Assembly: GCA_023253625.1 (NCBI GenBank)
Contig: JALRFY010000192.1
Coordinates: forward strand, 1-42,021
Direction of reading: 5' to 3'
Length of the DNA: 42,021 bases
DNA from: Akkermansiaceae bacterium
GTDB lineage: Bacteria > Verrucomicrobiota > Verrucomicrobiia > Verrucomicrobiales > Akkermansiaceae
The translations under genes and the position numbers were made by a program. How positions within the stretch are numbered: position 1 is the first letter of the stretch; each line of letters starts with the position of its first letter. This document shows, piece by piece, positions 5,623 to 40,877 of the stretch. Under the pieces are notes generated by a model that worked only from the letters and a program-made list of their open reading frames with translations, did no database searches and was not told where the DNA came from.

Positions 5623-6536
5623 CGTGCGCTGGGGATGGTTGCGCTTTGTTGGACGCGGCGGAGGACGCGGAGGTGTTTGGGGTGTGACTGGAGCAGCAGG
5701 TAGGCGGCCAGCCAGAGAAGGGCTGCGGAGAGAGCAAAGGTGAAATGGCCGATGGGGTCATGGGCGGCGGCTGCAGCCTCTGGGCCGCGGCCGAAATGGA
5801 CGGAGGCGAGCCACCACGCGCGCAAGGTGTTGAACGCGACGGCGCTGAGGGCGGCGGCGAGGATCAATACGATCCTTCGCGGAATGGAGAGGAGGAAGAA
5901 CTCGCCAAAGAACAGGGCCACCATGGCGAGACTCTGGAGCGAACGGATACCGCTGCAGCCGCCGGTGACGTCCACCACCTCGCCGGCCATGGTGAGGCGG
6001 GTGCCTTGAAGTTCGACCGGTTGACCGGCGAGCAGGAAACACTCGCGGGTGATGTGCATGACGCGGTCGGTGAGGGTGGACACCAGTTTCTGCTCGAACT
6101 GCCACGGATAGGGGACGCAGGACAGGGTGAAGATCGTGACCGGGAGCATGCCGAGCGAGGTCTTCCGGCCGAATTCACGGAACAGGAACCAGTGGGTGAA
6201 CGCACAGACGATCAGGACGTGGAGAAGGAGCGGGGGCCGCCATCCGGGGTCGGCCAGGCCGACGAGACGGAGCGGGATGACGAGTGCCGCGGCCACCAGA
6301 ATCAGAATCGCGGCGACTGGCCCGGCGGACGGGGAAGAGGGTGGATTGTTCCGTGCCGGGGTGAGGAGGTTCCAGCGCCGCCAGGCGAGACAGACGGCGA
6401 GCAGCGGGACAAACCAACCGTAGGCGTAATATTCGCCGTTTCGCCAAGTGGGAACGAGTGCCGCGAAGAGCTGGAGCCACAGGATGGAGATCAAGCCCGG
6501 AATTGCGCGCATGGTGGCAGTTGGCTGCGGGTTCAC
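5610..6536 (-). CDS. Exosortase (PEP-CTERM protein-sorting transpeptidase)
   Basis: This 308-residue multi-pass membrane protein carries the exosortase signature: the proposed catalytic Cys in GGCSGIRSLQ (Cys194), Arg in FNTLRAWW (Arg239) and His in AHDPIGHF (His259). About eight hydrophobic helices surround these sites. Exosortases cut PEP-CTERM proteins at the sorting signal and are thought to move them to another anchor. The GTG start overlaps the Wzc-like gene stop (GTGA, 6533-6536), so the two are translationally coupled; an ATG at codon 9 is an alternative. Substrates in this window are the PEP-CTERM proteins at 2650, 11608 and 35197. The C-terminal residues come from a simple repeat, beyond the conserved part. 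The exosortase subclass cannot be assigned by eye. Confidence 0.92.
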   Translation of the reverse strand: MNPQPTATMRAIPGLISILWLQLFAALVPTWRNGEYYAYGWFVPLLAVCLAWRRWNLLTPARNNPPSSPSAGPVAAILILVAAALVIPLRLVGLADPGWRPPLLLHVLIVCAFTHWFLFREFGRKTSLGMLPVTIFTLSCVPYPWQFEQKLVSTLTDRVMHITRECFLLAGQPVELQGTRLTMAGEVVDVTGGCSGIRSLQSLAMVALFFGEFFLLSIPRRIVLILAAALSAVAFNTLRAWWLASVHFGRGPEAAAAAHDPIGHFTFALSAALLWLAAYLLLQSHPKHLRVLRRVQQSATIPSARSEI

Positions 6537-8782
6537 TTTCCGGAGCGGGCCGCCCGGAACTTGCGAGACCGGCGTTTCCGCTTATCGATTTCCGACTCGT
6601 CCTTCTCTTCACCCGAGCCATAGGAGCCGTAGGAACCATAATTTCCGTAGCCATATTGGTAGGGCCGGCCGTAGCGGCTGAGGCGGTAGCTGCCGTAGCT
6701 GTAGTTTTCGCCGATCATCCGGCGGGTTTCCTTGAAGCCGTTGAAGACCAGGCCGGATGGGTGGGTGTCTGCGCTGGCGAGCAGTTCCAGAGTGCGATGC
6801 ACGGCACCGCGCGGGACGTAGTTGGCGCGAACCACAAGGCAGAGATTATCGACCAGCGGAGCGATGATCCGGGTATCCGGCACGGCGAGCAGCGGCGCGG
6901 TATCGACGACCACCAGGTCGTAGCGGGCGCAGGCCTCGGCGAAGAATTGCTTGAGGCGGGCGACGTTGAGAAGCTCACCGGGGTTGGGAGCGCGTTTGCC
7001 GCTGAAGATCACGTGGAGGTTTTCGGCCCCGGTATCGCGGGTGACGACCTCGTCGAAGGATGCCTGGCCGGCCAGCCATTCGACCATACCCATGCCCATT
7101 TCATTGCGCTTCACGCCAAAAGTCCGGTGCACGTTGGGCTTGCGCAAGTCGAGGTCAATCAGGAGGGTCTTACGGCCCTGGCCGGCACCGGCGAGGGCGA
7201 AATTGGTGGAAACCAGCGACTTGCCTTCGCCGGGGAGTGCGCTTGTGAACAAGGTGACCTTGCGCCGGGTTTCATCGCCAAGCAATGAGACCGAGGCGCG
7301 CAGGATGCGGAACATTTCCGCAAAGCTGGTGTGGTGGGTGGCGGTGCGGAAAACCATCCTCGGGTCCCAGACCTCCTGATGGGGATCGACTGTTTCATCA
7401 GGGTGTTTTTTCGCGTGAGCGCGCATGGCCTGCTCGATGTGGCGGATCTCGATATCAGAGACTGCGGCGAGCACGGGCATGCCGGTTTCCTCCTCGGTCT
7501 GGGCGACTGAGCGGAATTTATTGTCGAGGCGGATGAGTAGAAAGGCGATGGCGATTCCGAAAGCGAAGCCACCCCCGGCGCCGGTGGTGAAGACCTTGGC
7601 GGGTTGCGGCTCGGTGTGCATGCCGGGCACGCGTGCGAAGCTGCTGACCTCGGCGCTGGATTCCTCGCCCTCGCGGTTGACGTTGGACTCACCGAGGCGG
7701 GTGAGCATCGAATTGAAGACGCTCATCTGGCTGGCGATTTCGCCACGCAGCACGCCGGTGCGGGCGAGCAGCAGCTGGCGGGCAACGCGCAATTTGGTTT
7801 CCGGATCCTTGTTGCTGGCCTCGATTTCATCGCGTGCGGTTAGCCAGTAGCCGGCGTCCGCGGAAGATGACACCGCGATGGCGAATTCCTCGAGGAAGCG
7901 GTTTTTCGCGCCGGTGAGTTCACTGGATGCGGCGATCATCTTCGGGTGCTTTGGCAGGTAGCGGCGGGCAAGCTGGGAGACGTTGTTTTCGAGGTTTTCG
8001 AGGCTTTTGTGCAATTCCAGTGCGCGGTTGTAGGTGGCCAGCGCGCTTTCGGCCTGCTGGAGCTTGACGCGGACTTCCTCGGACTGCTTGGAGAGGGTGT
8101 CCGACTTGCTGCTGCGGCCTTCGGTGAGGGCGCCGGCGATTTCGGCGAGATATTCACGGGCCACGGCATCGGCCAGCGCCTTGGCCACCTCGGGGACCTC
8201 GTGGGTGAAGGTGATGTCGAGCAAGCGTGTGCCGCGGCGGATGGAAATCTGCATCCAGTCGCTCATCGCTCCCGCGAGTGCCGCTGGAGCGGGCGGGCCC
8301 TCGCTGGCCTTTTCTTCCGGTTGTTTGCCGGCACGGTCGTCCACCCAGTCGGCCAGCCAGGATGGCCGCCAATCGACGGGCGGCGGCATCAGACCGGGCA
8401 GCGAGCGGACGTCCATGCGGGATGCGACACGTTCGAGCAGGTCGAAACGCCTGATGCGTTCGGCCACGGTGTTGAGGCCCTCGATGGAACGCATGTCGAT
8501 TTCATCGACCTGGTCGCGGCTCATCACGGTGGATGTCTGCTGTTTGATGAGCAGTGAGGAAGTAGCGGCGTATTTCTTGGGGACCTTGGAGAGATAGTAG
8601 GCGGATGCAAGGCTACCGAGTGCCAGGCCGAGTGCAATCCAATACCAACGGCTCAGCAGGTCGAGCAGCAGACGCTTGGTCTTGCGGCTGCGCTCAGGGC
8701 CATTTGCAGGGGAATCGAGGAAGTCCTCGTCGTTTTCAAAATCGATGGCTTGCTTGGAATCAACGGGCGGTCGTGAACTCAT
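6533..8782 (-). CDS. Wzc-like polysaccharide chain-length regulator and tyrosine autokinase
   Basis: With the ATG at 8780-8782 (MSSRPPVDSKQ) the protein has 749 residues; a TTG 60 bases further upstream is possible but less likely. Its order is a cytosolic N-terminus, TM1 (about 46-65), a large periplasmic helical (Wzz-type) domain, TM2 around 400, and a cytosolic BY-kinase domain. The kinase has Walker A ALPGEGKS (515-522), Walker A' LLIDLDLRKP (540-549) and Walker B LVVVDTAP (623-630). The C-terminus carries a tyrosine cluster (about 694-722, YGYGNYGSYGSYGS), the usual autophosphorylation tail. It would control polymer length and couple polymerisation to the Wza-like exporter encoded just upstream. 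It is fully intact and coupled to the exosortase gene by a 4-base overlap. Confidence 0.93.
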   Translation of the reverse strand: MSSRPPVDSKQAIDFENDEDFLDSPANGPERSRKTKRLLLDLLSRWYWIALGLALGSLASAYYLSKVPKKYAATSSLLIKQQTSTVMSRDQVDEIDMRSIEGLNTVAERIRRFDLLERVASRMDVRSLPGLMPPPVDWRPSWLADWVDDRAGKQPEEKASEGPPAPAALAGAMSDWMQISIRRGTRLLDITFTHEVPEVAKALADAVAREYLAEIAGALTEGRSSKSDTLSKQSEEVRVKLQQAESALATYNRALELHKSLENLENNVSQLARRYLPKHPKMIAASSELTGAKNRFLEEFAIAVSSSADAGYWLTARDEIEASNKDPETKLRVARQLLLARTGVLRGEIASQMSVFNSMLTRLGESNVNREGEESSAEVSSFARVPGMHTEPQPAKVFTTGAGGGFAFGIAIAFLLIRLDNKFRSVAQTEEETGMPVLAAVSDIEIRHIEQAMRAHAKKHPDETVDPHQEVWDPRMVFRTATHHTSFAEMFRILRASVSLLGDETRRKVTLFTSALPGEGKSLVSTNFALAGAGQGRKTLLIDLDLRKPNVHRTFGVKRNEMGMGMVEWLAGQASFDEVVTRDTGAENLHVIFSGKRAPNPGELLNVARLKQFFAEACARYDLVVVDTAPLLAVPDTRIIAPLVDNLCLVVRANYVPRGAVHRTLELLASADTHPSGLVFNGFKETRRMIGENYSYGSYRLSRYGRPYQYGYGNYGSYGSYGSGEEKDESEIDKRKRRSRKFRAARSGK

Positions 8783-8847
8783 CGGGCGGAAGTGGGTGGC
8801 AATGGGAAGGCTACGGTGTGAGCGTGCGTAAACGTGTGTCAAACCGG

Positions 8848-9678
8848 TCAGAACAGGCGCTCAGGAACGGTGATGATGTCATCCGGCTGGAGCAACAGCG
8901 GAGTGTCGCCCCGCTGGGAGATTTCCTTGTAATCGACGGTGGATATCTTGCCTTTGCGGTTGATGGTGATTTTGCGCGGATTGGCGAGCTCGCTGAGGCC
9001 GCCTGCCATGGCGATGGCGGCGACGAGGTCGAGGCGGCCATTCACCGGGAATGGCAGAGGCCCCTGGCGGCCGACCTGGCCAAGGATGGTGAGCGATTTG
9101 CCGACGAAGGCGCTTTGATTGACGATGATACGGTCGCCGGCCTGGAGTTTCACCTGGCCGACGGTGCCATTGACGATCGCGTCCATGCGGTAGGTGGAGG
9201 TGGCCCCGGAGGTGCTGACGAGCAGGATGCTGTTGGCATCGGCGGTCTCGGCGAGGCCGCCGACGGTGGCCATGGCGGCGGCGAGGTCGAGATTTCCGGA
9301 GACCGGCATGGGGATCTGGCCGGGATTGCGGACAGCGCCGATCACGGAGATGAATTCGACGGCATATTCCTGGACGGTGAGTGTCACCTTGGGATCGACC
9401 AGGTAATCCTTGGCGTAAAGGTCGCGGATCCGGTTGGCTGCCACGGTCACGCTCAGGCCGCCGACCTCTACGGAGCCGATGAGTGGAAACGACGCGTGGC
9501 CGGTCTTGAGGACGCGGACGGAACCGGAGAGATCGGATTCCTCGTAAACGTCGAGGCGGATCACATCGTTGGGCCGCAGGATGTAGGAATTTTCAGTGAT
9601 CTCCTCAGCGCTTGCAAGCATCAGGGAGGCAAGGAAGAGGGTGGTGATGAGTCGAATTCGGCAGGTCATGGCGGTCAT
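8848..9678 (-). CDS. Wza-like polysaccharide export protein with two SLBB domains
   Basis: Starting at the ATG 9676-9678, or three codons later at 9669, gives about 276 residues with a clear signal peptide (MTCRIRLITTLFLASLMLASA). A longer open frame reaches 9921, but its extra 81 residues show no domain and overlap the neighbouring gene. The mature part has the Poly_export domain (YILRPNDVIRLDVYEESDL, about 32-105). Two SLBB segments follow: FISVIGAVRNPGQIPMPVSG (109-128) and SLTILGQVGRQGPLPFPVNG (195-214), each followed by a DL(A/V)AA helix and an (M/V)AGGL-type turn. No lipobox cysteine is present, unlike E. coli Wza. It should form the periplasmic and outer-membrane translocation channel, paired with the Wzc-like protein. 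Confidence 0.9.
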   Translation of the reverse strand: MTAMTCRIRLITTLFLASLMLASAEEITENSYILRPNDVIRLDVYEESDLSGSVRVLKTGHASFPLIGSVEVGGLSVTVAANRIRDLYAKDYLVDPKVTLTVQEYAVEFISVIGAVRNPGQIPMPVSGNLDLAAAMATVGGLAETADANSILLVSTSGATSTYRMDAIVNGTVGQVKLQAGDRIIVNQSAFVGKSLTILGQVGRQGPLPFPVNGRLDLVAAIAMAGGLSELANPRKITINRKGKISTVDYKEISQRGDTPLLLQPDDIITVPERLF

Positions 9679-9819
9679 GAGGGTGATCAGAAGATTGGAG
9701 GCCGGACGGGCAACCCGCGGGAGGAATGACGGATCATCAGGGTGCAATGGCGCGTGGGAAGATGCACTACGAAAGCCGGGCTGCAACCACCAATCCAAAA
9801 TCCGCGGCCATGTAAATTT

Positions 9820-9828
9820 TTTGGTATA
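9820..9828 (+). promoter_or_regulatory. Shared TTTGGYATA motif (copy b)
   Basis: TTTGGTATA lies within the gap between the export-protein gene and the beta-barrel gene, about 140 bases upstream of the export-protein start. It matches copies at 3496 and 12692. Function unknown. Confidence 0.3.
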
Positions 9829-9875
9829 TGAGGCGTGGAAATGATTTACCACCATTCGATTTGGAGTTGCCCGAT

Positions 9876-11453
9876 TCAAAAGCGATGGCTCAACCCGATA
9901 CCCGCCTGGAATGAATCCCACGTCTCGTTGGCCTGCCCGTCTTGTTTGCTGTATCGCATGAAGACGCTGGCTTGGACTGAATCGGAAAACACCGGCATGC
10001 CGAGCGAGGTGTCAAAAGAAACAAAGTTGCGATCGGCGATGTCCGCAAAGCGCGAAGGATCGGCATTTTCGGTGCTCCGGGATTCGAGGGAGGCACCGAG
10101 GTTCCATGACAGGCGGCGGATACGGCGTTGGTATCCGAGGCGCAGCGCGGTGATTTCCTCGAAGCGGCCGGCATCCGTGAAGGATGCCTGGGAGTCCCGC
10201 TGCAGCGAGAGGTTCATGCTCCACAAAACGGACGGCCGGTAATTGAGACCCGTCGAAAGGAAGAGCGAGGGATCCGCGGAGCCACCCTCTTCGTAAGAGA
10301 CGAAATCGGTGCCGATGCGCGAATTGAACGAAACCTTGCGGCTGAGTTGATAATTCACCGTGAATGTGGGGCCGACCGAGGTGCGGTCGCCAGCCGCCTC
10401 GCCGGAGCGCATGGTGTAGCGGATCCCGGGACCGAACTCGGTGAGCTTTGAATAACGCCATAACGCCGACAGATCGAAATTGGTGGACGATGTGTCCGCA
10501 TTGGAACCACCCGATGCGCTTTGGAAGTTCTGTGAAACTCCACCGCTGAGTGAGGTTTTAGAGCTCACACGATAGCGGGCGTTGAGTCCCCAGTTGTAGC
10601 TGATCTGGTCCACCACCGAGGCGTAATAACGGTTCGCCCCGCTGCCGAAATCAATACCCGCGCGCAGGGTGGCGTTGAGAGGGCCACTATCGTAATTCAG
10701 CTGCGTGCCGGCGTTCTGCTGATAGCCGCCCAGATCGCTGTTGTTGAAGTACCAGTTGTAGCTGCCGTTGTAATTGGCCGCGTAAGTCCAGGTGGAGGCC
10801 TTGCTTTGATATCCCAAGGATCCGCCGAGTGTGACGAAGAAATCGGATTGCCCGTCCGTTCCTCCTGCATTGTAGCCACGATAGGGATTGCTGTCGTAGG
10901 TGGCATTCAGGAAGCTGCCGAGGGACAAGCCATCGAGCAGCGATTCACCGGGCCAAGCGGCCATGAACGGCGTGTTCCAGCCGCTGTCGAAGCCGCTGCT
11001 TGCCATGGCGGACGACCCGATACCAGGTATGCCGGTGCTCCAGCGGGTCGAGTCCGGCAGTGGGACATTATTCCAAGCACCATCGGACTGCGCCGACGCA
11101 TCTTCAGCGAACTCTGCCGGGGATTCCAGCCCATGATCGATGGCGGAAGCCTCCGTAAGCCCGGTCGCGGCCATGGCTTCCTGCATTGACTGATCATCCA
11201 GCGGAACAACGGCTGAATCCGGCGGCACAGTGAGTGGAATGACCGCAGGCTGCAGCGGCGTGGCCAGCGGTTGCACTCCAGAAACCATCGGTGCACGCCC
11301 GAGACCAGGATCGGTGGGTCGGGGTTCGGAAAATCCCGTTACCGGAGGCTTGGATTCCTGCCCACAGACGAGTGATGCGGCGGTGAGGACGGCGATGCCC
11401 AGCGCAGGACTCAGACGGCCGATGGAGGCCGCCACTTGGGTTGGTATTCCCAT
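9876..11453 (-). CDS. Outer-membrane beta-barrel protein of the exopolysaccharide locus
   Basis: About 525 residues. A signal peptide (MGIPTQVAASIGRLSPALGI, then cleavage near VCGQES) leads to a proline-rich linker and then a long run of alternating amphipathic strands rich in Tyr, Trp, Asn, Ser and Gly (for example TWTYAANYNGSYNWYFNNSD). It ends in GIGLSHRF, a terminal aromatic residue typical of BAM-inserted barrels. It resembles outer-membrane proteins found beside wza/wzc homologues in exosortase loci, which probably help polymer exit. Two ATGs lie in tandem at 11456 and 11453; the purine-rich AGGGGTGG just upstream is better spaced from the second. The barrel fold is strongly supported; the transported molecule is inferred from context. 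Confidence 0.82.
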   Translation of the reverse strand: MGIPTQVAASIGRLSPALGIAVLTAASLVCGQESKPPVTGFSEPRPTDPGLGRAPMVSGVQPLATPLQPAVIPLTVPPDSAVVPLDDQSMQEAMAATGLTEASAIDHGLESPAEFAEDASAQSDGAWNNVPLPDSTRWSTGIPGIGSSAMASSGFDSGWNTPFMAAWPGESLLDGLSLGSFLNATYDSNPYRGYNAGGTDGQSDFFVTLGGSLGYQSKASTWTYAANYNGSYNWYFNNSDLGGYQQNAGTQLNYDSGPLNATLRAGIDFGSGANRYYASVVDQISYNWGLNARYRVSSKTSLSGGVSQNFQSASGGSNADTSSTNFDLSALWRYSKLTEFGPGIRYTMRSGEAAGDRTSVGPTFTVNYQLSRKVSFNSRIGTDFVSYEEGGSADPSLFLSTGLNYRPSVLWSMNLSLQRDSQASFTDAGRFEEITALRLGYQRRIRRLSWNLGASLESRSTENADPSRFADIADRNFVSFDTSLGMPVFSDSVQASVFMRYSKQDGQANETWDSFQAGIGLSHRF

Positions 11454-11460
11454 CATGCAG

Positions 11461-11468
11461 CCACCCCT
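11461..11468 (-). promoter_or_regulatory. Ribosome-binding site of the beta-barrel gene
   Basis: Minus-strand AGGGGTGG lies 4 bases before the first ATG and 7 before the second, so the second start (11453) has better spacing. It is one of the few clear purine-rich sites in the window. Confidence 0.45.
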
Positions 11469-11543
11469 GCAATTTTCACAGCGATTCGATCCTGTCATTC
11501 AGGGTTTCGTTCGGCTCGGTGGCTGGGTGGCTATCTGAGACAA

Positions 11544-11573
11544 AGCCGCCGCGGGACGGGCCCGCAAGCGGCT
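11544..11573 (-). terminator. Hairpin terminator of the second PEP-CTERM gene
   Basis: On the minus strand AGCCGC pairs with GCGGCT (outer 6 bp) and GCGGG with CCCGC (inner 5 bp) around a 5-base loop. TTTGTCT follows. It begins 34 bases past the stop codon of the gene at 11608. The T tract is imperfect, so termination may be partial. Confidence 0.7.
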
Positions 11574-11607
11574 GAATCTCCAGAAATATAATTAGTGGCA
11601 AGCAATC

Positions 11608-12435
11608 TCAGCGGCGGCGGCGGATCAGCAATCCCAAGCCCGCGACACAGGCGAGCAAGGCCGATGAGGGTTCCGGCACCAGAGACACGTCGTCAAGAAT
11701 CAGAATGTTGGAACCTTCGTTGTTCGGATCGAGAGGCTTCCAAACGAATCCATAGGTGCCCAGGTTCTGACTTCCTGCGCCGGCCAAAGTGCCCGAAGCG
11801 AACTCAACATTCTGGAACTTGGCCGAAAAAGCCACATCGTTGACTCCGGAAGGGGTGAACCGAATATTCAGAGTGCTCCACTGGCCCTCGTTCAGCGTTC
11901 CAATGTTGGCAGCGCCGGCTGCGAAGTCGCTTGACCATGAAAACTGATCCGTCCGGGGAGGATTCAGCTGTGGCGATGCGGACTGAGCTGTGGGCTGTAG
12001 TTGGATGGTCAGGATATTCTCGTCGGACGCACCGCGGAAAGTGAACTGGAATATGTCCCGGTTGGGGTAAGTAGGAACACTGTCCTGAACGATGAATGCG
12101 GTTTGAAACTCCGTGTAGCCGGCACCGTTTCCAACCAGACTGGAACCAGCGTTGCGGGAGAGATAGGCCGAAGCGGCATCGATTTCCTGGAAGCCGAAGT
12201 GAATGGCCTGACCACCGCTGACCGGAGATGGGAAAGGCGAAACGGCAATAGTCGCCACATCCGGAAGCGAAGCTCCAGTCAGACTCCAACCGTCGAGACC
12301 GTTGAGGTTGGAACCGAAATCGTATGGAGTGAGATCGAAGTCAGAGGAATAAACGGCAGCCTGTGTATGGGCTGCAAGACCGCCGACCACAAGAGTGAGG
12401 GCGAGATATTTCATGGTTGTTGATTTTTGTTTCAT
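11608..12435 (-). CDS. PEP-CTERM sorting-domain secreted protein
   Basis: From the ATG at 12433-12435 (MKQKSTTMKYLALTL) the protein has 275 residues; the second ATG at 12412-12414 is also possible, and either gives a signal peptide ending near AHTQA. The C-terminus (253-275) is VPEPSSALLACVAGLGLLIR plus arginines: Pro-Glu-Pro, a hydrophobic helix and a basic tail. The middle is a jelly-roll-like beta-sandwich, with strands such as YTEFQTAFIVQ, IFQFTFRG and TLNIRFTPSGVNDVAFSAKF and a final ILDDVSL strand, a layout common in carbohydrate-binding-like PEP-CTERM proteins. A terminator follows. It is a likely substrate of the exosortase at 5610 and a matrix or envelope component; its ligand is unknown. 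Confidence 0.88.
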   Translation of the reverse strand: MKQKSTTMKYLALTLVVGGLAAHTQAAVYSSDFDLTPYDFGSNLNGLDGWSLTGASLPDVATIAVSPFPSPVSGGQAIHFGFQEIDAASAYLSRNAGSSLVGNGAGYTEFQTAFIVQDSVPTYPNRDIFQFTFRGASDENILTIQLQPTAQSASPQLNPPRTDQFSWSSDFAAGAANIGTLNEGQWSTLNIRFTPSGVNDVAFSAKFQNVEFASGTLAGAGSQNLGTYGFVWKPLDPNNEGSNILILDDVSLVPEPSSALLACVAGLGLLIRRRR

Positions 12436-12485
12436 AGTTAGAGGGCGCTGGTGTTTTGGGGCGATAGTCGACAGAAGCAACTGAA

Positions 12486-12635
12486 TCACGGATTGCTAAG
12501 CAATGGTGAGCCGGAATCAATAATGATCACTGTAGCGGGCCTCCTGCCGCGGGCCGCTTCGGCAGGCAGAGTAAGCAAGGCAAACAAGGCGGTCACGAGA
12601 GTGATTGCGGCTGCGGTTTGGAAAATTTGATTCAT
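12486..12635 (-). CDS. Possible 49-residue secreted peptide
   Basis: The frame from the ATG at 12633-12635 encodes MNQIFQTAAAITLVTALFAL, then LTLPAEAARGRR, then a short tail ending LLSNP. The first 28 residues look like a good signal peptide with an A-E-A cleavage site, leaving only about 20 mature residues. A plausible promoter (TTGACC, 17 bases, TTTTAG) ends only about ten bases before the ATG. It lies 50 bases upstream of the PEP-CTERM start and could be a leader peptide, a small secreted peptide or simply untranslated leader. No family was recognised. Confidence 0.35.
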   Translation of the reverse strand: MNQIFQTAAAITLVTALFALLTLPAEAARGRRPATVIIIDSGSPLLSNP

Positions 12636-12645
12636 AACGAACGGA

Positions 12646-12674
12646 CTAAAACCCGGAAATGGGAAGGGGGTCAA
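12646..12674 (-). promoter_or_regulatory. Candidate sigma-70-type promoter for the PEP-CTERM unit
   Basis: On the minus strand TTGACC (12669-12674) is followed after exactly 17 bases by TTTTAG (12646-12651). The -35 match is 5 of 6 and the -10 is weak. An A/T-rich block lies just upstream (12678-12696), which could act as an UP element. Confidence 0.4.
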
Positions 12675-12691
12675 CCCAATTTTTTATTTTT

Positions 12692-12700
12692 TATACCAAA
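12692..12700 (-). promoter_or_regulatory. Shared TTTGGYATA motif (copy c)
   Basis: Minus-strand TTTGGTATA lies about 18 bases upstream of the candidate -35. On the plus strand it forms part of a small palindrome, CCAA-AGA-TTGG. It matches copies at 3496 and 9820. Function unknown. Confidence 0.3.
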
Positions 12701-12740
12701 GATTGGTTTTTGCCCCGAAATTCATCCCTTGAGCGGCGTT

Positions 12741-14726
12741 TTAGCGCCAATCATCCTCGGTCAGATATTTCTCGATATCCGGGTGCGTGCGCAGGATTTG
12801 GCCGATGCGTTCGCGGGTCCTGACGCTGTTGAAGCGGTTATCGGGATCCACGGCATCGACTGCGCGCGCCCGGGCCAAGGCCTGCCGGATCGACTCCGCG
12901 GCAAGCTGCGGGAATCCGGCTTCCAGGCTGCCGGCCTGGCGGAGTGGTCCAGCAACGGACGTGGGATCGAGCGCGAGGGCGACGGCGAGAGCGCGCTCGA
13001 TGCGGGCGGTTTTGTCGTCAAAGTGAAGGGCGAAGAAAGCCTCGTGGCGCGGGAGATCGCGGTTGAGCGGGGCGGCCGGGCGGGTTTGGTCGATGACGCG
13101 GAGGGCTTGTTCCAGTTTGTCGTCAGCGGGATCGGGCTCATGGGGGATGCCCTTTTCATCGGCGGCCTGCTGGAGGGCCAGGTCTTCTTGGTAGAGTTGG
13201 TGGAGCTGGCGGGTGGCCGCATGGACAACGGTGGTGGCGGGCTGGTTGCCGCCGAACCACTCGGCACGAATCAGGATGGTGGCGGCGGCGAGCAGCAACA
13301 GCGCGGCGACGCGGGCCGGCCAGCGTGCGGCGGGCTTGGCACTGGAGCCAGGCACATGCAGTGAGATGGCGAAAAGCAGCGCGGCGCTCCATGCGAGGGT
13401 GATGCGGTGCCCGGGCACGTCAAAAAGGCCGTGGATGGGAACGAGCAGGGCCGCGACCAGGCAGGCGGAGCGCAGCGCGCGATCGCGGCCGTTGCGGATC
13501 CCCTTGAGCGAATGCCACACGGCGCACAGGACGAGCGCCAAGAGCGCGGCCGCCGCCGGCAAGCCGGTTTCCGAGGCCAGCCACAGCCAATCGCTTTCCG
13601 GGTGAAAGGCATCGGCTTCCTGGGCAATGATCGTGCGCTGCCGGTATTGCGGGAAAACGTAATAATACTGTCCGGCGCCGATGCCGGTCCAGGGAAAATC
13701 GCGGATCAGCCCGAGGGTATCGAGGTGGATCGGGATGCGCAAATCGACATGTTGCAGCGATTCCAGCCCCGGATTCGCGGCGGCGAGTCCGGAAGAAGCT
13801 TCGGGTGTGGTCCCTGTTTCCGCCGGCCTGGCCGCACCCACGCGCTCCATGGTGGCAGTGATGCGCTCCTTCACGGAGGTATCCGCGATGAAGAACAGCC
13901 CGACGGCGGTCAACGCGATCAGACCGACCGCCCACAGTCCATGGCGGCCGAGGTAGCGGCGGCCGAGCAGAATGAGCCACAGCGTGCCGCCGGCGGCCAC
14001 CAGCACCACACCGCCGCGGCTGATCGACCAGGCGGCGACGGCCCACAGGCAGATGGCGGTGGCGGCCAGAGCGAGCGCCAGCGAGTAGAAACGTTTGTCG
14101 CGCATGGCCTGGAGCACACAGCCGAGGCCGCAGATCGCGCCCATGGCGAGGTAGGTGCCGGAGTGGTTCCGGTTCGGGAAAAACCCGAAATGGACAGCCT
14201 GCCCGTTGGCGTCCACGATTTGCAGCATGCGGGAAGCCACCGCGTAGCAGGCGACGCCGCAGGTGAAGGCCAGCGCGAGCCCGCGCAATGCGATGCCATC
14301 CGCCCGGTGGCCCGCCAGCCACATGCCGACCCACAGCATGATGCCGAAAACGGCCAGCATCTCCGCCGATTGGCGGGCTTGGATGGCCACCAGAGAGCCG
14401 GTATCCACGCCGATATCCTGCAGATTTTGCCGCCAGGCGGGCATGCCAAACCACCCGGCCGGCAGGAAACAAGCCAGCGCCGCGATTCCGAATGCCGTGG
14501 CCAGCAGCCACCAACCACGCGGCAGGCCGTGTCTCGGTGGACAACACGCCATGCACAAGCCGATCAGGGCGAAAAGCACGCCGTGAAAGCCGGCCCATGG
14601 CACCGCCACCAGGTAGGTGGCCAGGGTGACCACCGTCCAGAACACCCAGAAGACCGCACGCGATCCCTCCGGATCCGCAGTCAGCACCGGCGGCTTCGGG
14701 AGGCGTGATTCGGCTCGGAAAGGCAT
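12741..14726 (-). CDS. O-antigen-ligase / Wzy-type polymerase family membrane protein
   Basis: Starting at the ATG 14724-14726 (MPFRAESRLPKPP) gives 661 residues; the open frame extends further upstream but without sensible sequence. About a dozen hydrophobic segments fill the first 460 residues. The Wzy_C/O-antigen-ligase signature FFPNRNHSGTYLAMGAICGL is present, followed by a long loop with the typical GIGAGQYYYVFPQYR and HPESDWLWLASETGLPAA. The last 200 residues are soluble and helical, possibly TPR-like. The family polymerises or ligates lipid-linked sugar repeats at the periplasmic face. It is the first gene of the minus-strand locus and is separated from a plus-strand gene by a divergent gap at 14727-14902. 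Family membership is well supported; polymerase versus ligase cannot be decided. Confidence 0.88.
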   Translation of the reverse strand: MPFRAESRLPKPPVLTADPEGSRAVFWVFWTVVTLATYLVAVPWAGFHGVLFALIGLCMACCPPRHGLPRGWWLLATAFGIAALACFLPAGWFGMPAWRQNLQDIGVDTGSLVAIQARQSAEMLAVFGIMLWVGMWLAGHRADGIALRGLALAFTCGVACYAVASRMLQIVDANGQAVHFGFFPNRNHSGTYLAMGAICGLGCVLQAMRDKRFYSLALALAATAICLWAVAAWSISRGGVVLVAAGGTLWLILLGRRYLGRHGLWAVGLIALTAVGLFFIADTSVKERITATMERVGAARPAETGTTPEASSGLAAANPGLESLQHVDLRIPIHLDTLGLIRDFPWTGIGAGQYYYVFPQYRQRTIIAQEADAFHPESDWLWLASETGLPAAAALLALVLCAVWHSLKGIRNGRDRALRSACLVAALLVPIHGLFDVPGHRITLAWSAALLFAISLHVPGSSAKPAARWPARVAALLLLAAATILIRAEWFGGNQPATTVVHAATRQLHQLYQEDLALQQAADEKGIPHEPDPADDKLEQALRVIDQTRPAAPLNRDLPRHEAFFALHFDDKTARIERALAVALALDPTSVAGPLRQAGSLEAGFPQLAAESIRQALARARAVDAVDPDNRFNSVRTRERIGQILRTHPDIEKYLTEDDWR

Positions 14727-14902
14727 GACGCGTATGCAAGCGCGTGTCCCCGGGCTGTCAACCCAAACCCTGGCAGCGGGGATCACGGCCATGGCGTGGT
14801 GGACCGGGAACACAATCGTGCGGAGCGCCCGTGCAAAACGGCGGCATCGCCAGAATGAACCCGGGCTTGCCGAGCGGGGCATCACGCGGCATGATCCCCG
14901 TC

Positions 14903-17261: not shown

Positions 17262-18104
17262 CTACAGCGATCGATGGGCGACGGCCTCGATCATTCGCAG
17301 CGCCTCACGGACGGCGCGCACATCGTGGACGCGGTGGAGCATCACGCCTTTTTCGCGGGCCAGCGCGGTGATGGCCACGGTTGGCCAATGGCGCAGGGCG
17401 AGGTCGCCCTTTTCCAGCAAACTGGCAATGAATGATTTGCGTGAAGCGCCCAAGAGCAGCGGCCGGCCCCGCGGCGCGAGGCAATCGAGGGCACGAAGCA
17501 GCGCGAGATTGTGATCGAGCTTCTTGCCGAAGCCGATGCCGGGGTCGAAGCACAGGGCATCCGGGTCGATCCCGGCTGCGATGAGGGTTTCCATGCGTTC
17601 ATGGAAAAACGCCCGCACGTCGGCGACGACATCGCCGTAATGCGGGGCGAGCTGCATGGTGCGCGGCTCACCGAGCATGTGCATGACAACCACGCCACAG
17701 CCAGCGGTGGCGCACAGCCCTGCCATGTGCGGATCGGCGCGCAGGCCGCTCACGTCGTTGACGATGTCCGCGCCGGCACCGAGCGCGGCGAGCGCCACGC
17801 CCGCTTTCATGGTATCGATGGAAATCAGGCCGTTCCACTCGTCGCGCAGCGCGCGGATCACGGGGAAAACGCGCGCGGTTTCCTCCTCCGCAGTGACCGG
17901 TTGCGCCCCGGGCCGGGTCGATTCACCGCCGATGTCGATGATGTCCGCGCCCTCGGCGATCATGCAGCGCGCGTGTTCGAGCGCGGATTCCAATCGGCTG
18001 TGCCGGCCGCCGTCGGAAAACGAATCCGGTGTCACGTTGAGAATGCCCATGACCCTCGCGTGCCGGGAGAGGTCGAGCGTGGCGCGGGGAGTTTTCCAGA
18101 TCAT
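17262..18104 (-). CDS. folP: Dihydropteroate synthase
   Basis: Starting at the ATG 18102-18104 (MIWKTPRATLDLS) gives 280 residues, normal for FolP. The open frame runs 94 codons further, but that part is antisense to the next gene. The enzyme condenses 6-hydroxymethyl-dihydropterin pyrophosphate with p-aminobenzoate in folate synthesis. All loops are visible: MGILNVTPDSFSDGG, DIIDIGGESTRPGA, IVNDVSGL, CFDPGIGFGKKL, LLLGASRKSFI and the final HRVHDV. These are the pterin-, Mg- and sulfonamide-binding elements. The gene stands alone, divergent from the secreted protein at 18157. Confidence 0.97.
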   Translation of the reverse strand: MIWKTPRATLDLSRHARVMGILNVTPDSFSDGGRHSRLESALEHARCMIAEGADIIDIGGESTRPGAQPVTAEEETARVFPVIRALRDEWNGLISIDTMKAGVALAALGAGADIVNDVSGLRADPHMAGLCATAGCGVVVMHMLGEPRTMQLAPHYGDVVADVRAFFHERMETLIAAGIDPDALCFDPGIGFGKKLDHNLALLRALDCLAPRGRPLLLGASRKSFIASLLEKGDLALRHWPTVAITALAREKGVMLHRVHDVRAVREALRMIEAVAHRSL

Positions 18105-18156
18105 CGCGGGAACTGACGGCTTGCGGGCACCGCCCGGGCGGCCTAATTTGCCCATC

Positions 18157-18750
18157 ATGCAACGTCTGGCAACTTGGAAATCCGCCACTCTCGCCATGTT
18201 TGTGGCCTGCGCCACCGCGCACGCTGCCGCCCGGCAAAATGAAAACGGCTTCGACGAAGTGGACGGCCCGAACGTGCGCGTCATGCGCCATGACGACGGA
18301 TCGCGGACCCACTTCACACGCACCCCGGACAACCGCACGCTCACCAAGCGGAAGTTTTCCGCCAACGGCGTGCTGACCATGCTCACCGTCTATCGCATGG
18401 ACGCCAACGGCAACCCGATCGGCTGCCGCATCTCGGATGGCCTGGGCACCCTGCTCTTCAAGGTGAGCTACGGCTACCGCAAATCCGACGGCCAGCTTGT
18501 CGAGGAGCGCATGTTCGACGCCCGCACCGTCCGCCGCGATCCGCACACCGGCAAGGAAATGCCGATCCAGCGGATCTGTTATGTCTATGACGCGCAGGGC
18601 AACCGCAGCGCGCCCATCGTTTTCAACCTGCTGCCCGGCAAGAAATTCGAGGAAATCTTCGGTGACAAGGCCTCCGCCCTCGACCGCAACCCGTTCCTGG
18701 AAAAAGATGGTCCGGTGAATCCGAACGCGCGCCCGTTGGGCGGCCGTTGA
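18157..18750 (+). CDS. Secreted protein with YD-like segments, unknown function
   Basis: From the ATG at 18157 (MQRLATWKSATLAMFVACAT) the protein has 197 residues with a signal peptide ending near AHAAA. The mature part has repeated beta-hairpin-like stretches: VYRMDANGNPIGCRI, VSYGYRKSDGQLVEERMFDA and CYVYDAQGNRSAPIV. These resemble the YxYDxxGN pattern of YD/RHS repeats, but in only about three copies. The C-terminus is proline-rich. It is the first gene of a plus-strand group and lies 18 bases before the metallopeptidase-like gene. It is probably a periplasmic or surface protein; I do not recognise a named family. Confidence 0.7.
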   Translation: MQRLATWKSATLAMFVACATAHAAARQNENGFDEVDGPNVRVMRHDDGSRTHFTRTPDNRTLTKRKFSANGVLTMLTVYRMDANGNPIGCRISDGLGTLLFKVSYGYRKSDGQLVEERMFDARTVRRDPHTGKEMPIQRICYVYDAQGNRSAPIVFNLLPGKKFEEIFGDKASALDRNPFLEKDGPVNPNARPLGGR

Positions 18751-18768: not shown

Positions 18769-20067
18769 GTGCTCCAGCCTAAAACATTGCTGCCATTGCT
18801 CGCAGGCGGTGCCGTCGGTCTCGGCGGCGTCATGCAGGGGCTGCACTGGCGCTCGCTGGCGCGGTCCTCCGGCATCGCCGATCTCGAAACCCAGCTCCGG
18901 CTCGCCACCGAGGAAAACGAATTGCTCAAACGCGAGAACGCCTCGCTGCGATCACTCGCCCAAGGCGGCGGCGAGGTGGCCGTCCCACGCGAGGCGATCG
19001 ACCGCGCCGAGAAGGAAATGGGCCTGCATTTCCTCTCCAGCCCGGTCGTCCACCAGATCGCCACCGAGGAGCTGCGCGACCGCATTGCCGCCGCCATCGA
19101 GAGCCGCTTCGGCCCGGCTGGCATCGACGACCGACAGGACGCCTACCGGCTCATCGGCTGGCTCGATAGCGGCGATAACCTGCTCGCGCAACTCACGCTC
19201 GTCCGCGCCGTCGGGGCCGTCGGCTGGTTCGACGACGTCACCGGCGAGGCCTGGGTGACCGAGCGCTTCAATCCGGGCGACATCCCCGACCAGGCCGCGC
19301 TGCTGCGGCTGCTGTGTCGCATCCTGCTGCACCAGCACTTCCCGCCGCCCCCCGGCTATCCGGGCGACGATGCGGCGCGCGCGCGCGAGGCGCTCCACCA
19401 AGGCGCGGCGTCCGGTGCCGAGGCGCGTTTCTACGCCGCGAGCGCCCGCGCGCTGGGATTCATGCCGATGCGTGAAAATGCGGACGTGGAACAGATTTTC
19501 AACAGCCTCCCGCCTTTCATCCAAGGGCTCACCACCTTCCCCGTGATCGAGGGCAAGGGCCTTGCAGACACCTTGCACGTGCAGGGCAACGAGGCGTTCC
19601 ACGCCGCCTTCCGCAATCCGCCGCAAACCACCCGCGCGATCTTCCTGCCTGCGGAAACGGCCATGCCGGAACCAATCGACAAGCCCGCCCCACCCGGGGA
19701 GCCGTTTCTCACGGAAAGCGCCGGCCAGCTCGGCCTGCGCCTCTGGCTCGAAGCACTCGGCGACGTCGGCGAGGCATCCGAAATCGCCTCGTCCTGGAAA
19801 AACGACCGCTATCTCCTGCTGCCCGATGGCGAGGAATCCACCGCCATCGTCTGGGACATCGAGCTCGACACCGCGGAAGCCGCCGACCGCCTGCTCGCCG
19901 CCGCCAACACCCGCCTCACCGCCATGGCCGGCCTCGATGAACCCGCGCCTGCGGGCAAAATTGCAACCACCCCCGCAAAGCGCCACCTCGCCCTGCGCCG
20001 CCTGTCCCCCACCCGGCTGCGCTTCATCCACAGCGCCACCCGCGGGCTGGCCGAAAATTGCCTCTAA
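18769..20067 (+). CDS. Metallopeptidase-like protein lacking the HExxH zinc site
   Basis: This 432-residue protein starts at a GTG, with an N-terminal hydrophobic segment (about 7-23) and a coiled coil (about 36-65, ETQLRLATEENELLKRENAS). The body follows the layout I know from a family of putative exported zinc peptidases. In those, ALxHExxHALQDQHF leads to an EGxA helix, then PPFLxxxxxFPYxxG, FRNPPQST and finally GLRLWL, DRYLL and VWDI. Here the corresponding strings are LLRLLCRILLHQHFP, ALHQGAASGAEARFYAA, LPPFIQGLTTFPVIEGKG, FRNPPQTTRAIF, LGLRLWLEALGD and AIVWDIELD. At the metal site HExxH has become RLLCR. The fold may be kept without catalysis. This comparison is from memory of the pattern and was not computed. 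Confidence 0.6.
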   Translation: MLQPKTLLPLLAGGAVGLGGVMQGLHWRSLARSSGIADLETQLRLATEENELLKRENASLRSLAQGGGEVAVPREAIDRAEKEMGLHFLSSPVVHQIATEELRDRIAAAIESRFGPAGIDDRQDAYRLIGWLDSGDNLLAQLTLVRAVGAVGWFDDVTGEAWVTERFNPGDIPDQAALLRLLCRILLHQHFPPPPGYPGDDAARAREALHQGAASGAEARFYAASARALGFMPMRENADVEQIFNSLPPFIQGLTTFPVIEGKGLADTLHVQGNEAFHAAFRNPPQTTRAIFLPAETAMPEPIDKPAPPGEPFLTESAGQLGLRLWLEALGDVGEASEIASSWKNDRYLLLPDGEESTAIVWDIELDTAEAADRLLAAANTRLTAMAGLDEPAPAGKIATTPAKRHLALRRLSPTRLRFIHSATRGLAENCL

Positions 20068-20076
20068 CCGAATGTC

Positions 20077-20352
20077 ATGATTTCCAGGCGTGTCATCTTC
20101 GAAGGCCGCGTGCAGGGCGTCGGCTTCCGCTACACCGTCAAGGACCTCGCCCGCGGCTTTGATGTCACCGGCTGGGTGAAGAACCTGCCCGACGGCACCG
20201 TGGAACTCCAGGTCGCGGGTGAAGCCGCCGAGGTCGCCGGTTTCATCCGCGAGATCACCGAGGAATCCCCGGTGAGCCATCACATCAAGAACCACCACGT
20301 CGAAACCATCCCGCCGCTGGAGGAAGCCAGCGGCTTCCGGATCGAGCGGTAA
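20077..20352 (+). CDS. acyP: Acylphosphatase
   Basis: This 91-residue protein has the normal length. It hydrolyses carboxyl-phosphate bonds such as acetyl phosphate. The catalytic arginine sits in the phosphate loop FEGRVQGVGFRYTV, and the catalytic asparagine in GWVKNLPDGTVELQVAG. The ATG at 20077 lies 9 bases after the previous stop, so it is probably co-transcribed with the two secreted proteins upstream. No unusual features. Confidence 0.95.
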   Translation: MISRRVIFEGRVQGVGFRYTVKDLARGFDVTGWVKNLPDGTVELQVAGEAAEVAGFIREITEESPVSHHIKNHHVETIPPLEEASGFRIER

Positions 20353-29768: not shown

Positions 29769-32700
29769 TTAGACCACCGTCCATGCGGCGGGAAGCTCGA
29801 TCTCGACGGATTGCACGCGTCCACTGCGCCCGGTGATCTCGCGGGTCAGTTCCGCATCGAATTCCGCATCCGTGACCTCAAGCGCCGGACTCCCCGTGCA
29901 GTGAACACGGCAGACCGGACGTTCCAGATCCTCGCGCAAACGGTAACGAACCGGTGTGCCGGCCAGGGTGAAGCCGACGCTGCCGGCGGCATTGTCGCCG
30001 AATTCCGCACGCCGAAGCAGCCGCGGACGGAAGCGCAGGCGACCGTCGCGGAAATCGACGCCCAGTTCGCCCAACCGGCAGAGGATGCCCTCCTTGACCT
30101 GGCCGGTGAGTCCGGGTTGCCGCGCGCCGGCGTGCGCGGGGCTGTGTGAATAGGGTTCCGCAGGGAATGCGCCGTAGCCTTCCGGGGTCTTGCGGAAACC
30201 GAGTCCGCGCTGGATATCAAAGTAACAAGCGGCGAGGCGGCGAATGAGAACGTCATCGGCTTCATGCTCGCAGGCGCTCAGTGTGACTTCCTGTGCGGCG
30301 AGCATCAGTTTGGAAACCATGTGCCAATAGACGCAGCCGAGTCCCTCGTAGGCGAACATGCTGCCGCTCCTGCCGGTGAAGGAATGATGGCGGAAAGTCG
30401 CCTCATAGAGCGCTTCGACGGCGGAGCGGTCGTTTTCCGCCATATCTCCCAGCCCGCTTTCCTGTGCCAATCGGGCGATTCGTTCGCGCAAGGCATAGAC
30501 GTTCACCAGATCGGGGTGGAAACGGAATCCGGCATCCGGATCGCGCACCAGCAGTCGTTGGTCGCCACGCGCCGTCATCGCGGCCAACAACGGGATTTCG
30601 CCGGCCACTGCGGGATCCACGCGGTTGGTTTCCAGAAACGGAACCGTCTCGCGATCGGGATAGAGCAGGTAAGTCTCATGCCGCGACGAGCGCAGCGGGC
30701 TGTCTGGCAGCGCTTCAAGGAGATCGACGGCTTCGGCGGGATCAAGAATGCCGGAACTGAGGATGGAGACCTGGCCCTCGAGCATGGGAACGAGCCGTTC
30801 GATGCTCATGCGGCCGGCGGCCGCATGGATATGCAGCACGTTGTAGGAATGCCAGAGCGTGTCGTCGCGGCGGTTTTGGCGCAGGGTGGTCTCGAGCGAG
30901 GCGCGGGATTGCTCGATGAAATCGAGCACGCTGCGGCGCGCGAATGGCACGGATTCCCCCGGCCCAGCCTGATAGACGTGGCGCCGGTATCGCTCTACGG
31001 CAAGTCCCGCGGCACGCACAAGGTTGAAACGCTGGCCGGCATCGAGCGGCTCGCGGCGCGTCCAAAGCGGATCGCCGAACAGGTCGCCGAGGGTTTCCAG
31101 CAATTCGCAGATGGCCGGACTGAGCCGCAGCGTGTCATGCGGATGTGCGGCGATCATTTTTCCAATGCAGCCGAGATATCGATAGAGATATCCGGCGGTG
31201 ACCACCGAGAGCCCGCAGCCCGCGAGCGCATTGTTGGCGTCGTTCCACTCGGGACGCCGGGTGTTCAACCAAATGCCACCGCCGGGGATGAGATTGGCGA
31301 GTTTTGTCAGGGCCGGAAGCAGGAGTTTCTCGGCAAGCGTGGCACGCACCAATGAACCATCGGCGTTCCGAAGCAACAATCCGTCGGCGCCGATCCGGGC
31401 CTTGCGCTCCATCAGTTCCGCATGCAGCGCATGATCGAAAACCACCGTGTCGCGTGGGTCTTCGAGGGTTTTTTCCCACGAGACCAAACGATATGGCACA
31501 TCCGCATAGACATGCCCGGCGATGTCGAGACGCGCCGCCAGACGGTCGGGATGGACACGTGCCTCGAGCTCAAGAAGTTTGAGCAGATAGACGATCTGAT
31601 GATCGCCCCAGTAGCCGATGGATGCCCATGGATCGTCGGGCATTGGCGCCTCCCAGTCGATCCCTTCTGAAGTGATGCGGTAGGGGTTGAAGCCGTCGAT
31701 GGTGGAGGCGTTGAGAAACTTCGCGACGAAGGCATCGAGATATTCCGGATAACTCCAGGCGAGTGCTTCCCAATTTTGGAAGATATCGCGCCAGTTGCCC
31801 TCGAAGTGGTGGACGGGTCCGCTGTCATCATCGGCGACGCGGATGAAAAACCGGTTCCATGGACGGCTCGGATCGCCATGGCGGCGCGAGAGGATGAGTG
31901 GCAGATATTCGGTGGCGATGCGGTCGAGATCGGGATCGGCGATGGCGCGGACGGCTTCCAACAGCCCGTCGCGGCACGGATTTCCAGGCAATGCGGAAAG
32001 CGCTTCGGCATGGTGGGTGGCAAGCTCCGCATTGTGCCGGGAGAGATGCTGGAGGAAACGGCCGCGATCAAGCCGGCAACCATTCTCAGGTATCCCGCCG
32101 CGGAGGATGTTGGCGAGCGTGTTGTGATAATGATGAAGGACAATGTCCCTGTCCGCGGATTGTTGGAAACCATCCGCTGCCGCCACGATGGAGGCGAGCC
32201 GCCCGGAACCACTGCGGATATCGTTTTCCACTTCCGCCAGCAATGCGCCTGGATCGGCGAGCAAGCCGCGCAGACCCGCTATGTCCGATTGGCTCTGTTG
32301 GATTTCCGCCACCATGGTCCAATCCAAGGCATCGCCAGCCTCCAGAAAAAGATCGCGTGCGAGAAACATCGCGCCGCGCCTGCCACGCACCTGCCGGGCG
32401 GTTGTTGGCGCAGCGCCGCGCAGAAAAGCTTCCGCATCGCGCCGGTCCATGAAGGTCGGGCCCCCGCCCAGACCGGTGCACCATACCGTCGTCGCATGCA
32501 GCATTTCCAGCGGTGCGGGTTCGTCGGTGATCCCCGCGGCCAGGCGGTGGATGACAAGCGCCCCGCCAAGGTCCTGCTCGCTGATCTTGTAGGCGTCCGC
32601 CAGACAACTGAATTGAAGCTGGAAGCGGCTCTCGATGCCGGCGGGCATGAAGTTGTCGAGGCCATCGACAAGCCGCAGTCGGCGGCCGGCCGGACCCTCG

Positions 32701-33191
32701 TTGACGAGCCGGGCCGATCGGACGAATCCGAAGCGTTGCGAGAACCTCCAGCGATAGCTCATTCGCAAACCCATTTCGAGATGCTCCTCCTCAAACACAA
32801 TCTCGTCGCCCAACGTGCTTTTCATCAAACGCCTGCGGATCGGCCGTAGCCGAGCGATCGACGGACTGAAGGGATTCCAAAGATTTTCATTTGTGGCAAT
32901 CGCCGTCCACGGGCCGGTCGTGTTCCAGTTCCCGATGATTTTATCGACCGTGTAATATGGGAACAAAGCGCGCTCGGCGGACTGCCGTCCCGCGGTGAGC
33001 GATCCATGGCTGCTGCAAAACAGCCACTGGTCCCCAGCTCCGGAAATGCCGAGAAAAAAAGGCTCGAACTCTTCAAGCGGTTCGATCACCACATAATCGA
33101 CGCCGTGCGAGCACTTCCAGCGGTTCGCGGGTGGAAACGATGCGATGGCGGATGGCGCTGAGGCGACGGCCTGCTTTACGGTGGTTTGCAT
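29769..33191 (-). CDS. Large cytoplasmic GH94-clan-like protein, candidate beta-glucan phosphorylase
   Basis: This 1140-residue protein has no signal peptide. The N-terminal part is beta-rich (about 30-300) with LTAGRQSAERALFPYYTVDK. A helical, (alpha/alpha)-barrel-like centre follows, including EGNWRDIFQNWEALAW (464-479), ASIGYWGDHQIVYLL (523-537) and RRPEWNDANNALAG (645-658). Near the C-terminus come RSGSMFAYEGLGCVYWHM and PYSHSPAHAGARQPGLTGQV, and a final beta region. The layout and the WND(A/G) motif recall GH94-related phosphorylases, and the length suits GH149/GH161 beta-1,3-glucan phosphorylases rather than the 800-residue GH94 enzymes. Both comparisons are from memory. It is co-transcribed with a GPH symporter and lies near a GH81 glucanase. 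It may be a divergent member or a new family. Confidence 0.6.
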   Translation of the reverse strand: MQTTVKQAVASAPSAIASFPPANRWKCSHGVDYVVIEPLEEFEPFFLGISGAGDQWLFCSSHGSLTAGRQSAERALFPYYTVDKIIGNWNTTGPWTAIATNENLWNPFSPSIARLRPIRRRLMKSTLGDEIVFEEEHLEMGLRMSYRWRFSQRFGFVRSARLVNEGPAGRRLRLVDGLDNFMPAGIESRFQLQFSCLADAYKISEQDLGGALVIHRLAAGITDEPAPLEMLHATTVWCTGLGGGPTFMDRRDAEAFLRGAAPTTARQVRGRRGAMFLARDLFLEAGDALDWTMVAEIQQSQSDIAGLRGLLADPGALLAEVENDIRSGSGRLASIVAAADGFQQSADRDIVLHHYHNTLANILRGGIPENGCRLDRGRFLQHLSRHNAELATHHAEALSALPGNPCRDGLLEAVRAIADPDLDRIATEYLPLILSRRHGDPSRPWNRFFIRVADDDSGPVHHFEGNWRDIFQNWEALAWSYPEYLDAFVAKFLNASTIDGFNPYRITSEGIDWEAPMPDDPWASIGYWGDHQIVYLLKLLELEARVHPDRLAARLDIAGHVYADVPYRLVSWEKTLEDPRDTVVFDHALHAELMERKARIGADGLLLRNADGSLVRATLAEKLLLPALTKLANLIPGGGIWLNTRRPEWNDANNALAGCGLSVVTAGYLYRYLGCIGKMIAAHPHDTLRLSPAICELLETLGDLFGDPLWTRREPLDAGQRFNLVRAAGLAVERYRRHVYQAGPGESVPFARRSVLDFIEQSRASLETTLRQNRRDDTLWHSYNVLHIHAAAGRMSIERLVPMLEGQVSILSSGILDPAEAVDLLEALPDSPLRSSRHETYLLYPDRETVPFLETNRVDPAVAGEIPLLAAMTARGDQRLLVRDPDAGFRFHPDLVNVYALRERIARLAQESGLGDMAENDRSAVEALYEATFRHHSFTGRSGSMFAYEGLGCVYWHMVSKLMLAAQEVTLSACEHEADDVLIRRLAACYFDIQRGLGFRKTPEGYGAFPAEPYSHSPAHAGARQPGLTGQVKEGILCRLGELGVDFRDGRLRFRPRLLRRAEFGDNAAGSVGFTLAGTPVRYRLREDLERPVCRVHCTGSPALEVTDAEFDAELTREITGRSGRVQSVEIELPAAWTVV

Positions 33192-39144: not shown

Positions 39145-39214
39145 GGAGTGACCCGCAATCGGCGGGTCTCCAGACAATCGGTTTCCCTCCGGGATGCCGA
39201 TAGGAAAATCCAGC

Positions 39215-40810: not shown

Positions 40811-40812
40811 AG

Positions 40813-40877
40813 GCGGCGGGCTTAAACGACCGGCCCGCCTGTGGCAAGACCGGGGGCGGGGAAAATTCCCCACGCCC
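40813..40877 (-). promoter_or_regulatory. Two GC-rich hairpins in the serA leader
   Basis: The inverted repeat GGCGGGC (40815-40821) / GCCCGCC (40833-40839) lies next to the serA ATG. A second stem of eight base pairs with a 2-base bulge pairs 40854-40861 with 40868-40877 around AAAATT. Neither has a T run. They could shape the serA leader or be a weak terminator for the upstream aldehyde dehydrogenase gene. Confidence 0.35.

Follow-up and report, generated by a model that had tools for sequence, protein, structure and literature searches.

The stretch of DNA analysed here (42,021 nt, the window throughout) carries a gene for a 432-aa protein between a gene of 197 aa, referred to as the upstream gene, and a gene for acylphosphatase (acyP), with a divergent folP beyond the upstream gene (Table 1). 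The 5' end of the mechanically called folP ORF overlaps the upstream gene and probably extends too far. The source genome contains one match to the 432-aa protein.

Table 1. Genes at the locus and features of the 432-aa protein, in window coordinates.
Feature	Position (nt)	Strand	Basis or remarks
folP (dihydropteroate synthase), divergent	17262..18386	-	PF00809, E 1.8e-83
Upstream gene, 197 aa	18157..18750	+	signal-like N terminus by eye; no Pfam family
Pseudopeptidase gene, 432 aa	18769..20067	+	GTG start, one open frame; homologous to NF038145-type HExxH peptidases
Possible N-terminal membrane anchor, residues 7-25	18787..18843	+	highest 19-residue hydropathy 1.54; helix 4-30 in low-confidence model
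Probable coiled-coil stalk, residues 36-63	18874..18957	+	helix 36-63 in low-confidence model
Degenerate zinc-peptidase domain, residues 74-432	18988..20064	+	profile comparison, probability 98.7, E 4.3e-16
Former active-site segment, residues 172-221	19282..19431	+	highest conservation of any 50-aa stretch of the domain, window family (44 rows)
RLLCR in the HExxH column, residues 180-184	19306..19320	+	alignment; Arg180 in 40 and Arg184 in 42 of 44 window-family rows
Gln211 in the third-zinc-ligand column	19399..19401	+	column is Glu in 20/20 HExxH rows
FRNPPQTT, residues 281-288	19609..19632	+	common to HExxH members (PPxST)
Acylphosphatase (acyP)	20077..20352	+	PF00708, E 1.1e-22

Gene order was compared at 46 loci of the order Verrucomicrobiales, some of which stop at contig ends. 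The upstream gene lies 5' on the same strand in 33 of these (window included), acyP follows on the same strand in 32, and folP lies upstream on the opposite strand in 31. At L183 (the gene also listed as L163, with HELTH), a locus from a different order of the class, the upstream gene adjoins (phmmer E 1.6e-6) and acyP lies about 1 kb downstream.

All 54 genomes tested from the order have the upstream gene, including 31 with no match to the pseudopeptidase, and an obligate partnership of the two was rejected on these grounds. Its link to the pseudopeptidase is positional, since it is present with or without the latter; in the three genomes of family f4 that were tested it is on another contig. 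The upstream gene is a conserved unknown that merits separate study. An EnvC-like pairing with an amidase was also discarded, as Amidase_3 genes occur near 11 of the 46 loci but also near 11 of 20 loci from genomes that lack the pseudopeptidase, and a search of the window revealed none. Elsewhere in the window, the region 6536-14885 (-) encodes an O-antigen ligase domain (Wzy_C) and an AAA_31-type ATPase and is perhaps a polysaccharide cluster, and the open frames at 29772-33191 (-; 1140 aa) and 39194-40822 (+; 543 aa) have no Pfam match at E <= 0.001.

Relationship to HExxH peptidases

A Pfam search with the 432-aa protein returned no family up to E 10. Its only NCBIfam match is NF038145, 'Hvo_1808 family surface protein' (19.1 bits, E 6.2e-4, residues 78-298), far below the 200-bit cut-off, which five HExxH homologues from the phylum also do not reach (69-147 bits). 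When 387 genomes of the phylum were searched with NF038145, 15 matched; HExxH is present at six loci, L077-L082, all in other classes. One of these six proteins, used to search plasmids, gave four records, and the two that were read are a haloarchaeal Hvo_1808 family protein (L139; HELTH, with LVEGDAS, PDSTEQ and WDADR) and a Chloroflexota protein (L140; HELTH). For the family of HExxH relatives, no Pfam family over cut-off and no PDB sequence relative was found, and scans of viral contigs revealed no relative. From their motif, the HExxH relatives would be active peptidases.

Comparison by hhalign with a profile built from the six HExxH proteins of the phylum aligned residues 74-386 of the 432-aa protein (probability 98.2, E 4.9e-14), and the profile of the family to which it belongs (the window family) aligned with the HExxH relatives over residues 74-432 (Table 1). 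As judged by these comparisons, the domain is homologous to that of NF038145 over its length. A repeat of the comparison with the six homologues scored 106.5, against a maximum of 24.0 in 137 controls: shuffled versions of the domain (100) scored <=20.8, and further stop-to-stop frames of >=300 aa from the window (37) scored <=24.0. The domain read in reverse scored 18.7. The match of the 432-aa protein to the peptidase site is more than chance.

AlphaFold models of the protein, with the window protein and fetched loci as input, had pLDDT values of 49.8 and 54.3, and Foldseek searches of the PDB with them gave no match at E <= 0.001. The second model draws residues 175-190 and 202-228 as two helices after two short strands, at pLDDT values of about 33-46 that do not make it evidence. 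Two helices after two short strands are expected of a zincin. Because the predicted models are poor, the fold and function discussed below are inferred.

Loss of the zinc site

The alignments place RLLCR on HExxH and LHQG on LVEG, as the initial annotation had proposed for the first of these, and the profile score given above agrees with this placement. In the HExxH rows the first His, the Glu, the second His and the downstream Glu are each conserved in 20/20. In the 44 rows of the window family Arg prevails at both His positions (Table 1), Leu replaces the catalytic Glu in 31/44, and the third-ligand column holds Gln in 22 rows, Ala in nine, His in seven, Thr in three and Glu in two. Neither HExxH nor HxxEH occurs in any of the 44 rows, the 432-aa protein included, and the alternative HExxH-like site that could have spoken against the annotation was thus not found in the family. 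As judged from the alignment, the 432-aa protein has none of the three zinc ligands and lacks the catalytic Glu; in it, RLLCR and Gln211 stand where a zincin has HExxH and the third-ligand Glu. The loss of both His and the Glu in an intact frame, noted at the outset, therefore extends to the third ligand. Catalysis would have been lost, since no residue that should hold zinc remains. The landmark strings said to follow the metal site are indeed present in the translated frame: RLLCRILLHQHF (residues 180-191), LPPF..FP...G (247-262), FRNPPQTT, GLRLWL (322-327) and VWDI (361-364).

The site was read in 108 distinct homologues (84, and 24 added later), a sample of those that exist. HExxH is absent from 86, kept in 21 and not reached in one partial sequence (L024). 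All 86 homologues without HExxH belong to Verrucomicrobiales, the order of the window, as assigned by genome kinship or, for rows from named records, by title and tree position, with the order identified from titles and NCBI taxonomy, and the 21 with HExxH come from outside it: 13 loci from other orders of the class, six from other classes and two from other phyla. Among the homologues fetched, the loss is hence consistent across the clade, as it should be if the initial annotation was right.

A tree of 85 rows was built without the site columns after removal of 23 of the 108 rows (six partial and 17 near-identical); six partial rows had been left out of the first tree also. All 65 inactive rows fall on one side of a branch with bootstrap/SH-aLRT support of 89/65, and one change of state is needed. 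A single loss is the most economical history on this tree, and loss is simpler than gain because HExxH occurs in archaea, Chloroflexota and several classes of Verrucomicrobiota. The chosen outgroup is not set apart from the other rows by any single branch, and it is the long-branched haloarchaeal L139 (91/70), not the enzymes of the class, that stands closest to the inactive clade among active rows. With this nearest row and the moderate support of 89/65, neither the identity of the direct enzyme ancestor nor its anchor is certain. By alignment and tree, the 432-aa protein is a homologue of a peptidase family without the catalytic residues, i.e. a pseudopeptidase.

Living members of the order display graded states of the site, namely HELAR, xExxR and RLLxR. 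In family f2, L124 has HELAR followed by ALADQHFDL, on a long branch of unsure place, and xExxR is found in L049, L118, L130, L132, L135, L136, L137, L152 and L158. The site columns run without gaps from HELTHALQDQHF (L139) through HELARALADQHF (L124) and LEIARSLQDQHF (L049) to RLLARILLHQHF (window family), and all four share the D-ALxxG and PPxxT landmarks downstream. The alternative that the alignment misplaces the site, with the true metal site in another part of the protein, draws on the low-confidence models, which give no direct check; it is very improbable given this gapless series, the shared landmarks and the lack of any other HExxH.

L124 (about 3986-5422, minus strand) itself keeps the first His and the Glu, with Arg for the second His and Ala for the third ligand, and its half-lost zinc site would make it a good biochemical intermediate. 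A search of 288 genomes of the order with a profile of the HExxH proteins matched 138; the best 20 of these loci included 15 repeats and five new homologues, none with HExxH, and other matches or unsampled genomes could hold one. The sites of the class matches G657, G665, G675 and G680 and of several weak ones are not in the counts. Locus L084 (G387, from another order or family of the class) has HELGHRLQDQ, which resembles the active site of the family; it is absent from the profile matches and stands outside the counts.

Selection on the presumably inactive protein and its possible role

Nonsynonymous to synonymous ratios (omega) were calculated by the method of Nei and Gojobori with our own script, on frames running from stop to stop, with a few codons upstream included. 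They were 0.056-0.267 in 15 inactive pairs, some of which share a sequence, and 0.115-0.263 in three active pairs. These values indicate purifying selection on the protein in the genomes that carry it.

At E <= 1e-4 the family profile finds a match in 195 of 288 genomes of the order, in most of them only one, though the weakest matches may be to the coiled coil only. Among 36 relatives from the same genus, 23 match the 432-aa protein and 13 do not, and a profile search of ten of these 13 gave nothing better than E 0.009. In 15 fetched same-genus genomes without the gene, some of them close relatives of each other, acyP begins <=90 bases after the upstream gene in 13 and another ORF lies between them in two (L225 and L227). 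The latter, of about 200 aa and at the place of the pseudopeptidase, is presumably MarC-like. The pseudopeptidase gene is thus dispensable, being missing from 13 of 36 relatives, with the flanking genes directly adjacent in 13 of the 15 absentees; as omega indicates, it is nevertheless retained by selection.

Within the window family (44 rows), mean entropy over 50-residue stretches of the domain is lowest for residues 172-221, the former active-site segment (rank 1 of 309 and of 310). This segment also ranks first in a thinned set of 18 rows from the genus, seventh in ten rows from outside the genus, and second in the HExxH rows, compared with ranks of 63, 170 and 111 of 310 in f2, f3 and f4, respectively, all ranks being uncorrected for descent. 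Residues present in >=90% of window-family rows and in <=10% of HExxH rows include Pro173, Gln175, Arg180, Arg184, Arg206, His210 and Glu218. As these alignments indicate, the segment is strongly constrained again in the window family only, with Arg180, Arg184, His210 and Glu218 as new residues. A repurposed pocket is argued for this family only, because the segment is not specially conserved in f2, f3 and f4.

It could be argued that the enzyme became useless in the order, that the gene is being lost and that the conservation reflects common descent only. The absence of the gene from 13 of 36 relatives, the closed or differently occupied gap in the 15 absentees, the low conservation of the segment in f3 and f4, and the single stop codon in each of three matches among those listed for the order are in keeping with such decay. 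However, omega in the inactive pairs spans a range like that of the active ones, 195 of 288 genomes still match although rows outside the window family are only 18-26% identical to the 432-aa protein, and the new residues at the old site occur in 40-43 of 44 rows. Decay is therefore considered improbable. The earlier statement that this is not a decaying gene is supported by the open frames, the omega values and the renewed conservation in the window family.

The new residues admit another interpretation, in which the protein has kept an enzymatic function, with a different chemistry or a different metal site. Arg180, Arg184, His210 (43/44) and Glu218 (41/44), which all lie within the old segment and each occur in no more than 10% of active rows, would then form a new catalytic or metal centre. 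This is distinctly improbable: HExxH and HxxEH are lacking in the 44 rows, His188 and His190 are found in only 26/44 and 32/44, and neither His210 nor Glu218 is kept in the rest of the order.

Hydropathy of the 432-aa protein peaks over the 19 residues from residue 7, at a value that is weak for a membrane helix, and the best value beyond residue 60 is 1.0. Over the stalk, the family profile is similar to coiled coils from the PDB (E 0.0067 and weaker). The weakly hydrophobic residues 7-25, the coiled-coil-like segment and the signal-like N termini of relatives (by eye) suggest that the protein would be exported, and it is probably membrane-anchored. A hydrophobic N terminus is present at all 13 HExxH loci that belong to the class but not to the order, and most have a coiled-coil-like stretch (by eye; hydropathy was computed for three). 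The anchor and stalk may thus predate the loss of the zinc site; the idea that the loss accompanied a change from a secreted to a membrane-anchored protein was dropped, as these HExxH relatives already have the hydrophobic N terminus.

The explanation that we favour, and regard as likely, is a genuine pseudopeptidase: a probably exported, membrane-anchored zincin-type domain on a coiled-coil stalk, whose zinc site disappeared in a single event when Verrucomicrobiales arose or close to that time, and which has been kept by selection and would bind without cutting. The protein is probably repurposed, and would bind instead of cutting because it is kept under selection after loss of the residues that hold the metal. 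The domain would face the periplasm and keep the peptidase fold, and its old substrate cleft may bind a peptide or an anionic group and leave it intact. Conservation together with precedent suggests a scaffolding or regulatory role in the envelope, like that of degenerate LytM factors or FtsHi; a review of inactive metallopeptidase homologues (PMC11266112) offers further precedent. A more specific version, offered tentatively and rather unlikely to be correct, is an exchange of arginine for zinc, with Arg at both His positions so that guanidinium groups replace the metal dication. The cleft would then hold a carboxylate or phosphate (the C terminus of a peptide or an anionic polymer of the envelope, for example) uncut, and HELAR, xExxR and RLLxR would be its graded states.

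Comparison with known systems

Searches of titles and abstract openings for pseudoproteases or pseudopeptidases of Verrucomicrobia, inactive HExxH pseudoenzymes and the string HELVHALQDQ did not find the family, and 'Verrucomicrobi' was not found in the available text of a review of inactive metallopeptidase homologues (PMC11266112). One order holds graded states from a half-lost to a rebuilt zinc site, beside intact relatives in the same class, and the system allows a direct test of the change from enzyme to binding protein. Annotation of such genes of Verrucomicrobiales as peptidases would probably be wrong.

Among the closest known systems are the HExxH homologues encoded at 13 loci (L163-L182) outside the order but within the class, which have the same domain, a hydrophobic N terminus and mostly a coiled-coil-like stretch. 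They differ from the 432-aa protein in that the zinc site is intact and that a divergent RNase R gene adjoins ten of the 13 and folP none; L183 shares the upstream gene with the window locus. The Hvo_1808 family (NF038145) has a homologous domain, whereas the 432-aa protein lacks the zinc ligands and catalytic Glu and has a coiled-coil stalk. Hvo_1808 appears in a paper on lipobox processing, in the available part of which it is not treated as a peptidase (PMC2945643).

In the degenerate LytM factors EnvC and NlpD, a catalytically inactive metallopeptidase domain regulates other envelope enzymes (PMC8416486). The likeness lies in the inactive domain; the LytM domain belongs to another peptidase family, and no specific link to an amidase was found for the 432-aa protein. 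FtsHi pseudo-proteases of plant chloroplasts have also retained a membrane-bound peptidase domain in which HExxH is substituted (xExxx) or missing (PMC8197885). They differ in combining an M41 domain with an AAA+ ATPase, and several of their null mutants are embryo-lethal (PMC8197885), whereas the gene in the window is dispensable.
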